Assembly: GCA_002356515.1 (NCBI GenBank)
Contig: AP017605.1
Location: forward strand, 2,728,001 to 2,792,000
Length of the DNA: 64,000 nucleotides
From: Mesorhizobium loti
Lineage (GTDB): Bacteria > Pseudomonadota > Alphaproteobacteria > Rhizobiales > Rhizobiaceae
Direction: 5' to 3'
The notes below the pieces were generated by a model. The model had not been told where the DNA came from and did no database searches. It was given only the letters and a program-made list of their open reading frames with translations. Made by a program: the position numbers and the translations under genes. Positions 40,136-61,240 of this stretch are shown here, one piece after another. How positions within the stretch are numbered: the first letter of the stretch is position 1; the number at the start of each line of letters is the position of its first letter.

Positions 40136-40163
40136 ATAGTCCCCGTGCCTTGTGTGAGGCTTG
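40136..40163 (-). promoter_or_regulatory. Candidate FtcR-type promoter element of the motA operon
   Basis: Minus strand: CACACAAG (40156-40149), nine bases, then CTAT (40139-40136), ending 36 bases before the GTG. A second CAAG lies exactly 11 bases upstream (40163-40160), giving a direct repeat as expected for an OmpR-type activator. The same pattern precedes four other flagellar operons. Confidence 0.55.
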
Positions 40164-40198
40164 AATCGGGCCTGCCATCAAACCGAATGTCGGGCGAT

Positions 40199-40226
40199 TC
40201 AGTTTCGCGCAAGGAAGTGAGGTTAT
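40199..40226 (+). promoter_or_regulatory. Candidate FtcR-type promoter element of the DUF1217-flgF-fliI operon
   Basis: CGCGCAAG (40206-40213), nine bases, then TTAT (40223-40226), 29 bases before the ATG at 40256. The position 11 bases upstream of CAAG reads TCAG, a weaker half-site. It lies in the same 156-base gap as the divergent motA element. Confidence 0.5.
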
Positions 40227-40255
40227 TGTCGCGATATTAAGCTTCGGCCGGAGGC

Positions 40256-41383
40256 ATGACGTTGCTCAGTACCTTTACCAGCTATCAGTTGATCACCAAG
40301 GACATCGCCAAGTCTATCGACCGCATCGAGCAGCAGCCGACGGTCGATCGCGACACCCAATATTATCTCGCCAACATCACCAAGGTGAAATCGATCGACG
40401 ATTTCGTCAACAATGACCGGCTGTTCAAATATGCCATGAAGGCCTTTGGGCTCGAGGACATGGATTACGCCAAGGCCTTCATGGTCAAAGCGCTCAAGGA
40501 AGGCGTTTCGGATTCCAACAGTTTCGCCAACAAGCTGACCGACAAGCGCTACGCACAGTTCGTCAGCGCCTTCAATTTCGCCGCCAACGGCGCCGACGCC
40601 ACCATCTACAACAAGGCGCAGCAGCTGGTGACGAAGAACTACGCCACGCAGGCGCAGATCGCCGGCCTCGATCCGAACTCCGCCTATGTGAAGGGCGAGA
40701 CGACCTACTACCTCGCCAACATCACCAAGGTGAAGTCCGTCGACGACCTGATGTCGAACAGCCGGCTCTACACCTATGCCCTGGCCGCATACGGTCTCGA
40801 CTCGGCGACCGAGGACAAGGACCTGATCAAGCAGGTCCTGCAAAGTAAGGTGAGCGACCCTGCCAGCGTCGCCAACAAGCAGACAAACCCAGCTTACGCG
40901 GGACTGGCTTTGGCCTTCAATTTCGAGGCCAATGGCGAGAACGCCACCACCATCAATCCTGCGCAGCAGCCGACCGTCGACAAGTACCTGCGTCAGACCC
41001 TCGAGGAAGATGCCGGCCAGACCAATGAGGGCGTGCGGCTGGCGCTCTATTTCCAGCGCAAGGCGCCCGACATCACCAGTTGGTACGACGTGCTGGCCGA
41101 TACGGCCCTTGCTAGCGTCGTGCGCACCGCGCTGGGGCTGCCCGATTCCTTCGCCACGGCCGACATCGACAAGCAGGCGCAGTTGTTCGAGCAGAAGCTC
41201 GACCTCACGGATTTCACCGATCCCGCGAAGCTCACCAAGTTCCTGACCCGCTTCACCAGCATGTACGAGATCAACAATCCGACCTCGACGGCGGTGTCGT
41301 CGGTCAGCGTGCTCTTCGCTCAGCCGGTCACGGTGGGCATTTCCACCGACCTGATGATGGCCATGCAGAAGTTGAAGTTCTGA
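40256..41383 (+). CDS. DUF1217-family flagellar-cluster protein
   Basis: 375 residues. Two internal repeats of about 120 residues each contain YYLANITKVKS(I/V)DD, LMSNSRLYTYALAAYGL-type and FNFxANG blocks; a third, more diverged copy follows. This is the DUF1217 family, found in alphaproteobacterial flagellar clusters and of unknown function. No signal peptide is obvious. It is the first gene of the plus-strand operon with flgF, which starts two bases after its stop, so an extracytoplasmic rod- or hook-related role is possible but unproven. ATG 40256 with a GGAGG site. Confidence 0.85.
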   Translation: MTLLSTFTSYQLITKDIAKSIDRIEQQPTVDRDTQYYLANITKVKSIDDFVNNDRLFKYAMKAFGLEDMDYAKAFMVKALKEGVSDSNSFANKLTDKRYAQFVSAFNFAANGADATIYNKAQQLVTKNYATQAQIAGLDPNSAYVKGETTYYLANITKVKSVDDLMSNSRLYTYALAAYGLDSATEDKDLIKQVLQSKVSDPASVANKQTNPAYAGLALAFNFEANGENATTINPAQQPTVDKYLRQTLEEDAGQTNEGVRLALYFQRKAPDITSWYDVLADTALASVVRTALGLPDSFATADIDKQAQLFEQKLDLTDFTDPAKLTKFLTRFTSMYEINNPTSTAVSSVSVLFAQPVTVGISTDLMMAMQKLKF

Positions 41384-41385
41384 TC

Positions 41386-42111
41386 ATGCAAGACAGTCTC
41401 TACGTCGCCCTTTCCGCGCAGATGGCGCTCGAGCGCCGGCTCGACACGATCGCTGACAATGTCGCCAACGCCAACACGGTCGGCTTTCGCGCCACCGGCG
41501 TGAAATTCGAGGACATGGTGTCGGGCACCGGGCAGAAATCGGTGTCCTTCGCCTCGTCGGGCAAGACCTATCTTTCGGGCGCCCATGGCCCCCTGACCGA
41601 GACCGGCAATCCGTTCGATTTCGCCATCCAGGGCGACGCCTGGTTCGCCATCGACACGCCGGCCGGCACCGTCATGACCCGCGACGGCCGCTTCTCGATG
41701 AACGAGAATGGCGAGCTGATGTCGATCGAGGGCCATCCGGTGCTCGACGCCGGCGGCGCGCCGATCCAGCTCGACCCCCGCAACGGCCCGCCCAAGGCCG
41801 GCGCCGACGGCTCGCTGCGCCAGAACGATCAACTCGTCGGCTCGATCGGCCTCTACAATTTCGACCCGGGCGAGAATTTCGTGCGTTACGGCAATTCCGG
41901 CATCGTGCCGGCGCACACCCCCGAGCCGGTCACCGATCGTTCCGATGTCGGCATCGCCCAGGGCTTCGTCGAGGAATCCAACGTCAATCCGGTGCTGGAG
42001 ATGACCCGGCTGATCATGGTCCAGCGCGCCTTCGAGAACACCGCCGCCCTGATGCGGCAGACCGATTCCTCCACCGACGAGGCGATCAAGACGCTCGGCT
42101 CGAAGTCGTAG
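41386..42111 (+). CDS. flgF: Flagellar proximal rod protein FlgF
   Basis: 241 residues. The N-terminal rod-family helix reads MQDSLYVALSAQMALERRLDTIADNVANANTVGF (its positions are 1-34), and the C-terminal helix contains NPVLEMTRLIMVQRAFENT. A beta-rich domain with FAIQGDAWFAIDTPAGTVMTRDG lies between. Exported by the flagellar type III system without a cleaved signal. Distinguished from FlgG (45589) by length and by its place before fliI, the usual rhizobial order. Confidence 0.92.
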   Translation: MQDSLYVALSAQMALERRLDTIADNVANANTVGFRATGVKFEDMVSGTGQKSVSFASSGKTYLSGAHGPLTETGNPFDFAIQGDAWFAIDTPAGTVMTRDGRFSMNENGELMSIEGHPVLDAGGAPIQLDPRNGPPKAGADGSLRQNDQLVGSIGLYNFDPGENFVRYGNSGIVPAHTPEPVTDRSDVGIAQGFVEESNVNPVLEMTRLIMVQRAFENTAALMRQTDSSTDEAIKTLGSKS

Positions 42112-60307: not shown

Positions 60308-60394
60308 GCGTATTTTCTGCTTCTAATACGCCCACCGCGCTGCTCTGGGGTTGCCGTTTTGACTTGCCCAGAACTTGCCACGCCAAGCATATCT

Positions 60395-60414
60395 GGTTGC
60401 ACGCTAATGCAACC
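60395..60414. promoter_or_regulatory. Lux-box-like 20-bp palindrome upstream of ftcR
   Basis: GGTTGCA (60395-60401), CGCTAA, TGCAACC (60408-60414): perfect seven-base arms within 20 bp, the size and symmetry of a LuxR-type operator. It lies 117 bases before the ftcR ATG. VisN and VisR in this window are LuxR-type proteins and activate the orthologous rem gene in S. meliloti. Confidence 0.5.
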
Positions 60415-60531
60415 GGCGCGATTCCAGACTCCCAAGAAACTAGTTACAAGAAATGACGGTTGTTCAGGATTCTCGCCAGCGGTTACGCCTTTCTCCACGG
60501 GGCAGATGTGCTGATTCGGAAGGCGGGGCCG

Positions 60532-61200
60532 ATGATCGTGATCGTTGACGAGCGAGAGCTCGTAACTGAGGGATACAATTCACTTTTTGATCGCGAGGGC
60601 GTCGCCTGCGCAGGCTTCGCGCCCGGCGAATTCGGCGAGTGGGTGAACTCGGCCGCCGACACCGATCTGCGTTCGGTGCGCGCCTTCCTGATCGGCGACT
60701 GCCGTGACGGCGCCATCTCTCCGCGGCAGATCCGAGACCGCACCGGCGCTCCGGTCATTGCGCTCAGCGAGCAGCATTCCCTGGAAAACACGCTGCGGTT
60801 GTTCGAGAGCGGCGTCGACGATGTCATCCGCAAACCGGTCCACATCCGCGAGATCCTGGCCCGCATCACCGCCATCCGCCGTCGCGCCCATGAGGATGTC
60901 GCCTACACCGAGATCGGCGCCATGCGCATCTTCATGGACGGCCGCGACCCCGAGATCGACGGCCAGCCGCTGCCCTTGCCGCGCCGCGAGCGCCGCATCC
61001 TCGAATATCTGGCGAGCAACCGCGGCCGCCGCGTCACCAAGACCCAGGTCTTCAACGCCATCTACGGCATTTTCGACGAAGAGGTCGAAGAGAACGTGGT
61101 GGAAAGCCACATCAGCAAATTGCGCAAGAAACTGCGCGAGAAGCTGGGCACAGACCCGATCGATTCCAAACGCTTCCTCGGCTACCGGCTCGTCTTCTGA
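60532..61200 (+). CDS. ftcR: Flagellar transcriptional regulator FtcR/Rem (OmpR-type response regulator)
   Basis: 222 residues from the ATG at 60532, which follows GGAAGG; the frame extends 24 codons upstream but the family starts MIVIVDERELV. The receiver domain is about 1-115, with D6, a candidate phospho-acceptor D56 (FLIGDCRDG), S79 and K101 (IRKPVH). The OmpR/PhoB winged helix is about 125-222, with LPRRERRILEYLASNRGRRV and NVVESHISKLRKKLREKLG. No sensor kinase gene is adjacent, so this is an orphan regulator, as in Brucella and Sinorhizobium. It is the likely activator of the five operons that share the CAAG-N9-NTA element. Confidence 0.92.
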   Translation: MIVIVDERELVTEGYNSLFDREGVACAGFAPGEFGEWVNSAADTDLRSVRAFLIGDCRDGAISPRQIRDRTGAPVIALSEQHSLENTLRLFESGVDDVIRKPVHIREILARITAIRRRAHEDVAYTEIGAMRIFMDGRDPEIDGQPLPLPRRERRILEYLASNRGRRVTKTQVFNAIYGIFDEEVEENVVESHISKLRKKLREKLGTDPIDSKRFLGYRLVF

Positions 61201-61212
61201 TGCCGCACCGCG

Positions 61213-61240
61213 CCAGCCTCGCGCAAGACAGGACGCGTAG
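61213..61240 (+). promoter_or_regulatory. Candidate FtcR-type promoter element of flgE
   Basis: CGCGCAAG (61220-61227), nine bases, then GTAG (61237-61240), 39 bases before the flgE ATG. An upstream half-site CCAG sits exactly 11 bases before CAAG (61213-61216). The first eleven bases, CGCGCAAGACx, match the flgB element almost fully. Confidence 0.6.

Follow-up and report, generated by a model that had tools for sequence, protein, structure and literature searches.

A conserved promoter element before the flagellar operons of Mesorhizobium loti and its relatives is very probably the landing site of FtcR/Rem

Introduction

By which DNA sequence, and by which protein bound to it, are the flagellar operons of Mesorhizobium loti addressed? 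The question is raised by a stretch of 64,000 nucleotides (in the following the window, C1:2728001-2792000 of a genome of 8,452,151 bases in four contigs), which carries flhB-fliG-fliN-fliM-motA on its minus strand and DUF1217-flgF-fliI, the flgB-to-fliP run, two flagellins, fliF-motB-motC-fliK-like, ftcR and flgE on its plus strand. An earlier note on this DNA had described one pattern before five of these operons and had interpreted it as a promoter element of class II flagellar operons through which FtcR/Rem acts. The present analysis favors the same reading, which draws on specificity, orthologous promoters, association with FtcR, repeat structure and spacing: the same element precedes the main flagellar operons here and in relatives, and FtcR/Rem very probably binds there.

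In rhizobia, agrobacteria and relatives, flagellar genes are under the master control of the VisNR-Rem/FtcR cascade. In this cascade, VisNR acts on Rem and Rem on the class II genes (PMC8429497). The Rem-dependent class II flagellar promoters of Sinorhizobium meliloti have been described by Rotter et al. 2006 (as cited in PMC8429497). Rem, which drives these class II genes, is reported to be an aspartate-less regulator (PMC9812332; PMC8429497) that is active without phosphorylation (PMC9812332), and the Brucella orthologue FtcR binds upstream of fliF (PMC9456535).

Results

Five elements in the window and their specificity

The five elements lie at the coordinates and on the strands that the earlier note had given, and the start codons begin 27-39 bases past the element ends, as had also been claimed there. 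Each element is composed of a box, ten bases without consensus (N10) and a -10 hexamer, and the site scores range from 22.3 to 30.6, with a possible maximum of 31.3:

40133..40164, minus strand: element before motA (motA-fliM-fliN-fliG-flhB strand); box TCAAGCCTCACACAAG, N10, -10 TATCCC at 40138-40133; score 22.3; 17.7 bits
40198..40229, plus strand: element before DUF1217-flgF-fliI; box TTCAGTTTCGCGCAAG, N10, -10 TATTGT at 40224-40229; score 30.6; 16.0 bits
44403..44434, plus strand: element before the flgB operon; box GCAAGGTCCGCGCAAG, N10, -10 TAGTCT at 44429-44434; score 24.6; 21.9 bits
53341..53372, plus strand: element before the fliF operon; box TTCATTTTCGCACAAG, N10, -10 TAGTGT at 53367-53372; score 29.0; 21.7 bits
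61212..61243, plus strand: element before the flgE operon; box GCCAGCCTCGCGCAAG, N10, -10 TAGCCT at 61238-61243; score 29.6; 23.3 bits

A complete TAnnnT is present in four of the five, and the motA element (TATCCC) lacks the final T. In the window, the exact pattern CRCRCAAG-N10-TAK is found five times against 0.12 expected occurrences, and a count of five was reached in none of 100 dinucleotide shuffles; when the upstream half-site is included, 100 shuffles of the window do not give a single match. The short pattern loses its specificity once a mismatch is tolerated and is then near background (8 found, 5.4 expected). A matrix built from 38 sites outside the genus places the five window sites at ranks 1 to 5 among ~128,000 positions.

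In the whole genome, 11 exact matches to the short pattern were counted, the five window elements among them (reversed pattern: 37), and the extended pattern with at most one mismatch has 11 places, six of which are situated before flagellar operons (reversed control: 2). These six belong to DUF1217, flgB, fliF, flgE, motA and, at C1:2807882-2807911 and thus 16 kb outside the window, to flhA (695 residues, Pfam FHIPEP, E 1e-232), which begins 45 bases after the end of this sixth copy. Three contexts of other genome-wide pattern matches were inspected, and there was no flagellar gene among them. We also searched the genome with a sequence-only profile of 40 sites, in which the five window sites were part of the training set and the flhA site of this genome was excluded. 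The seven best sites are those of flgE, flgB, fliF, motA, flhA, C1:648856 and DUF1217, with E-values from 5.7e-4 to 0.13, and the eighth has an E-value of 0.73. Scoring covered 150 of 4279 first-look candidates, and the E-values are rough. Of the seven top-ranking sites, six are located before flagellar operons, and the genome scan that the earlier note had suggested indicates near genome-wide specificity.

The remaining site among these seven, C1:648856-648885 (E 0.049; an exact match to the extended pattern), is not followed by a convincing gene in this locus and was taken as a chance match. It is flanked by genes for an ABC transporter and for a GGDEF protein and faces the 3' end of the latter. 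It could mark the start of an antisense or small RNA, but chance is the more likely explanation.

Architecture of the element

Over 86 dereplicated sites, which were retained at 0-2 mismatches and at 20-70 bases from a start codon, the consensus reads CAG-YYT-C(G/A)C(G/A)CAAG-N10-TAgnnT. Conservation is strongest in C(R)C(R)CAAG, and the flanks differ between sites while this core is kept. Columns that were not used for the choice of sites are conserved as well, with A at -5 in all sites, G/T at -4 in 99%, T at -1 in 85% and T at +23 in 88%. The last T of the TAnnnT hexamer, which was not part of the pattern in the earlier note, is kept in 88% of the 86 sites.

When the columns of base frequencies are compared at offsets from 5 to 14, their similarity exceeds chance at an offset of 11 and at no other, and the element thus has tandem direct half-sites at the distance of 10-11 bases that characterizes operators of OmpR/PhoB-type regulators. 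In the earlier note, an upstream half-site at 11 bases had been proposed in the form CAAG; the spacing stands, and the form has to be refined, since the upstream half-site is mostly CA(G/T) with an invariant A.

Among sites selected by the box alone, TANNNT follows exactly 10 bases past CAAG in 175 of 199 cases, and one case falls on the other 14 offsets in the range 4-18; these counts come from related sites and are not independent. The near kin (80 named near-kin loci) contribute 145 of 146 sites with TANNNT at offset 10. The window genome and its genus contribute 22 of 30, and all eight misses are motA sites, which keep the TA. Other genera and families contribute 8 of 23; there, NAnnnT is found at offset 10 in 16 of 23 sites and in at most four at any other offset. 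In the genus and its near kin the distance is thus well fixed, and in more distant genomes the -10 sequence itself becomes variable. The start codon follows the -10 at a median distance of 34 bases. The box occupies the place of the -35, so that a fixed distance to the -10 is combined with the lack of a -35 consensus, as is the case for OmpR/PhoB-type activation. The OmpR-type layout postulated in the earlier note, with an 11-base direct repeat and a fixed distance to the -10, is hence clear in the genus and near kin, and looser beyond them.

Occurrence before orthologous operons

To follow the element through other genomes, 22 window proteins were placed on 181 loci by tblastn and the 200 bases upstream were examined, with loci of distinct upstream sequence being counted and the pattern being accepted at 0-1 mismatch. 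The element is present upstream of motA (15/16), DUF1217 (4/5), flgB (10/16), fliF (79/90) and flgE (90/112), and one shuffle of each of these sets of upstream regions gave no match. Upstream of fliI (0/6), flgC (0/17), fliE (0/10), flgI (0/7), fliP (0/23) and motB (0/87), it was not detected. One of the 140 ftcR upstream regions contains a match of this quality, and none of the 140 contains the box. The counts obtained with flgF (17/44) and flgG (86/118) were set aside because these queries also match related rod and hook genes such as flgE.

The flagellin queries gave 7/90 and 6/88 at one mismatch, with one match each in the shuffles. Three of these matches are weak look-alikes in Mesorhizobium, and the others are box-like sites at 125-151 bases from flagellin-like genes in Aminobacter and two other families. 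Overall, such sites are situated ~122-151 bases before a flagellin-like gene in Aminobacter (loci L083, L084, L089 and L093) and in genomes with two FliF genes (loci L124-L126, L130, L226 and L227). In Aminobacter and in the two-FliF genomes, flagellin may join the direct regulon, with a long leader. The second flagellin of the window is preceded by no more than a weak match, which scores 14.0. That no copy precedes visN, ftcR or the flagellins, as the earlier note had it, holds for visN in the window and in S. meliloti, for ftcR in the 140 regions and for the window flagellins; it does not hold for some flagellin-like genes of Aminobacter and of other families, which have a box-like site.

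The comparison with other Rhizobiales that the earlier note had recommended finds the element before orthologous promoters in S. meliloti and others. In S. meliloti (CP090106.1), it precedes flgE, motA and flgB, DUF1217 with CAGGGT as -10, and fliF at 145 bases; it also precedes the motB operon, 288 bases ahead of the first annotated gene, and an unannotated fliQ-fliR stretch, the expected place of flhA. No element was found upstream of visN, nor on the coding strand before flaA, flaC and flaD of S. meliloti; for these three flagellin genes, preceding CtrA motifs have been reported (PMC3616915). Phyllobacterium zundukense has the element before flgB and flgE, and weaker forms before fliF, flhA, DUF1217 and a rod-binding gene. 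The element is thus placed before hook-basal body and motor operons and not before class I genes, with visN assessed in the window and S. meliloti only, as would be expected for a class II promoter.

The S. meliloti sequence offers two side observations. A match of 22.2 on the minus strand near the 3' end of flhB (L223:6927) could serve a hypothetical gene behind flhB. CP090106.1 is labelled as S. meliloti plasmid pSymB and has 3.72 Mb. The flagellar and che cluster is found on it, and the record resembles the chromosome or a replicon with a wrong label.

Association with FtcR

The 297 genomes of the order were sorted by the presence of FtcR, whose orthologues are separated from other response regulators by a gap in E-values (<=1e-47 versus >=1e-26), and by the presence of flagella, judged from a match to the FliF C-terminal domain (217 of 297). 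Sites were counted with the extended pattern with the first base of the -10 left free, and the reversed pattern served as control. The 83 genomes with FtcR contain 218 sites (2.63 per genome; control 11, 0.13 per genome). The 141 genomes that have FliF and lack FtcR contain 38 (0.27 per genome; control 24, 0.17 per genome), and the 73 genomes without either contain 30 (0.41 per genome; control 9). Outside the family of the window, 70 FtcR-bearing genomes have 151 sites (2.16 per genome; control 8), which differs from the FliF-bearing genomes without FtcR with a Mann-Whitney p of 8e-24, a value that ignores relatedness. Within the family, there are 372 sites in 102 genomes with FtcR (3.65 per genome; control 22) and 8 sites in 19 genomes without it (0.42 per genome; control 5).

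The location of the sites shows the same tendency. In 37 FtcR-bearing genomes of the family, 103 of the 145 matches listed lie within 50 kb of ftcR, 6 lie farther away on the same contig, and 36 are on other contigs. From 23 genomes with two FliF matches, 13 were usable among those listed; in these two-flagellum genomes, 26 of 33 sites are within 50 kb of ftcR, and none is within 50 kb of the best-scoring FliF. The element goes with FtcR rather than with flagella as such: it is present where FtcR is and absent in flagellated relatives without FtcR, with exceptions in both directions. The link to FtcR, which the earlier note had itself offered with reservation, is therefore backed by an association that goes beyond flagella as such, and FtcR would be the protein that binds.

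FtcR of the window possesses the domains PF00486 (Trans_reg_C, E 7.5e-17) and PF00072 (E 6.6e-08), so that a regulator with a Trans_reg_C domain is linked to the element. The protein is 100% identical over 222 residues to FtcR in four listed Mesorhizobium genomes, and RegX3, BasR and PhoP are among the solved structures that it matches best in sequence. In 21 FtcR orthologues, G56 is invariant and the lysine of the RKPVH stretch is replaced by N or Q in some, which is in keeping with an aspartate-less, phosphorylation-independent Rem (PMC9812332).

Discussion

Proposed mechanism

We consider it highly probable that the element is the operator of the OmpR-type activator FtcR/Rem, standing in the place of the -35 of class II flagellar promoters. 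The element would then represent the operator-promoter of the class II regulon, i.e. of the hook-basal body and motor operons. A dimer of FtcR/Rem would bind head to tail to the two half-sites that are 11 bases apart (CAG...CAAG), the downstream half-site would end 10 bases before the TAnnnT hexamer, which the housekeeping sigma factor would recognize, and the activator would fill the -35 place and touch the polymerase there, which would be a class II activation as at the pho box. Position, spacing, repeat and conservation of the element, its specificity in this genome and its association with FtcR are the observations from which we infer the bound protein, the sigma factor that reads the -10 and the polymerase contact.

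At pho box promoters, PhoB occupies the -35 place and binds two direct half-sites ~11 bases apart, of which the downstream half is positioned ~10 bases before the -10. The present element shares with these promoters of a PhoB/OmpR-type regulator the direct half-sites ~11 bases apart, the ~10 bases to the -10 and the absence of a good -35. It differs from the pho box in its half-sites, which are CAG and CAAG with other bases in between, and in that relatives of FtcR are reported to be aspartate-less (PMC9812332). Because Rem works without phosphorylation (PMC9812332), the switch would be set by the amount of FtcR that is made.

Points against this mechanism and alternative explanations

Several observations weigh against FtcR/Rem as the binder, or against the generality of the element. 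The spacing signal of the -10 stems mostly from related loci. Among the loci of other genera and families, 9 of 53 have no score above 11, and among the 83 genomes with FtcR, an exact match is missing from 9, and 27 do not reach two matches. Conversely, at least two sites are found in 5 of the 141 flagellated genomes without FtcR and in 4 of the 73 genomes that lack both FtcR and FliF. For the Brucella orthologue, chromatin immunoprecipitation sequencing (ChIP-seq) gave another motif, TGTGGGCA, in 118 of 363 cases, and electrophoretic mobility shift assays were carried out with ftcR and betI fragments (PMC9456535). In a start-site study of S. meliloti, MEME analysis of 482 upstream sequences resulted in three motifs, none of which resembles the element (PMC3616915). 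Lastly, ftcR is part of the flagellar cluster, so that the element and FtcR might occur together because a different binder is inherited jointly with FtcR.

This last point leads to the alternative that survives best, i.e. that the element is the site of another regulator, be it VisNR, CtrA or some further protein from the flagellar cluster, which was inherited together with FtcR as one unit. The deviating Brucella motif (PMC9456535) can be counted in its favor, and we nevertheless regard it as improbable. Clear matches to VisN (E <= 1e-18) and to VisR (E <= 1e-32) are found in the same 12 of the 297 genomes, all of which belong to the family of the window, and weaker VisR-like matches occur in 19 further genomes, of which 5 have FtcR. 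The 70 FtcR-bearing genomes outside the family, with their average of 2.16 sites, are beyond the clear VisN/VisR range, and according to a review, Azorhizobium and Bradyrhizobium have rem and lack visNR (PMC8429497). VisNR was rejected as binder, as the element is not confined to genomes with VisNR and occurs in FtcR-bearing genomes without clear VisN or VisR, with the sensitivity of the models being limited: even VisN and VisR of the window score below the cut-offs, and distant ones could be missed. A binding by VisNR is hence unlikely. As to CtrA, a weak form of its repeat is quoted in PMC3616915.

The CtrA box is likewise a direct repeat for an OmpR-family regulator before alphaproteobacterial flagellar genes, but it is AT-rich and thus differs in sequence from the element, and CtrA was rejected as binder for this reason.

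An activator-free promoter, read by a special sigma factor at CAGYYT (-35) and TAnnnT (-10), could in principle account for a -10-like hexamer at a fixed spacing, and the spacer would have 18 bases. However, the most conserved part, C(R)C(R)CAAG, would fall inside this spacer, the two halves repeat at 11 bases, and flagellated relatives without FtcR lack the element. This idea was set aside on account of the conservation inside the would-be spacer, and it appears very improbable. That five operons share a similar string by accident, for which the near-background count of the short pattern with one mismatch might be quoted, can be dismissed in view of the exact-pattern count in the window, the ranking in the genome profile search, the flanks that differ while the core is kept, and the occurrence before the same operons in other genera.

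Relation to published motifs

How does the FtcR/Rem operator proposed here relate to what has been published? The Rem-dependent class II promoters of S. meliloti concern the same kinds of genes and an orthologous regulator, and the element is found before those operons. The motif of Brucella melitensis FtcR belongs to an orthologous protein as well, and fliF is named as a target, but its sequence is different (PMC9456535). In the upstream regions of motA, DUF1217, flgB, fliF and flgE, TGTGGGCA was found in 0 of 223, with ~1.3 expected from shuffles, and it was rejected as motif of these promoters, with the tested regions not being assignable to Brucella itself. In the ftcR upstream regions, it was found in 1 of 140, against a shuffled mean of 0.98.

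It seems likely to us that CAG-YYT-CRCRCAAG-N10-NAnnnT is the ancestral operator of FtcR/Rem/LafR, kept across many FtcR-bearing families, that it defines the direct flagellar regulon (six operons here, with some flagellins added in Aminobacter and two-flagellum families), and that the motif published for Brucella FtcR does not represent the flagellar operator. A printed Rem/FtcR operator consensus like the element was not found in the openly licensed literature, as far as the accessible texts go, including PMC9456535, PMC3616915, PMC8429497, PMC9812332, PMC4018554 and PMC8639532, and any claim of novelty for the operator consensus is limited to this literature. The difference between the consensus and the ChIP motif of the Brucella orthologue can be resolved from existing data. 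With a clear consensus and a set promoter geometry, direct regulons become readable from sequence, and the cascade becomes testable by point mutations.

Genes of the window

Gene identities in the window are based on Pfam and NCBIfam for 17 scanned proteins and on likeness to the annotated S. meliloti region for the others. The genes that concern the element are:

60532..61200, plus strand: ftcR (rem), regulator with receiver and Trans_reg_C domains (OmpR/PhoB-type), proposed binder; homology with S. meliloti Rem and Brucella FtcR
39224..40099, minus strand: motA, first gene after the minus-strand element; Pfam MotA_N, MotA_ExbB
40256..41383, plus strand: DUF1217 gene, first gene after its element; Pfam DUF1217
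44459..44839, plus strand: flgB, first gene after its element; Pfam Flg_bb_rod; synteny with the annotated S. meliloti region
53407..55056, plus strand: fliF, first gene after its element; Pfam YscJ_FliF, YscJ_FliF_C
61280..62539, plus strand: flgE, first gene after its element; Pfam FlgE_D2 and rod domains
33644..35121, plus strand: visN-visR (LuxR pair), elsewhere known as activators of rem; no element before visN-visR

A good but imperfect match is present at 8901-8932 of the plus strand, with CAAA for CAAG and a score of 18.8, and no flagellar gene is nearby. For visN (33644-34354), the match to the NCBI VisN model is largely confined to the C-terminal half and reaches 111 bits, far below the cut-off of 250 bits.

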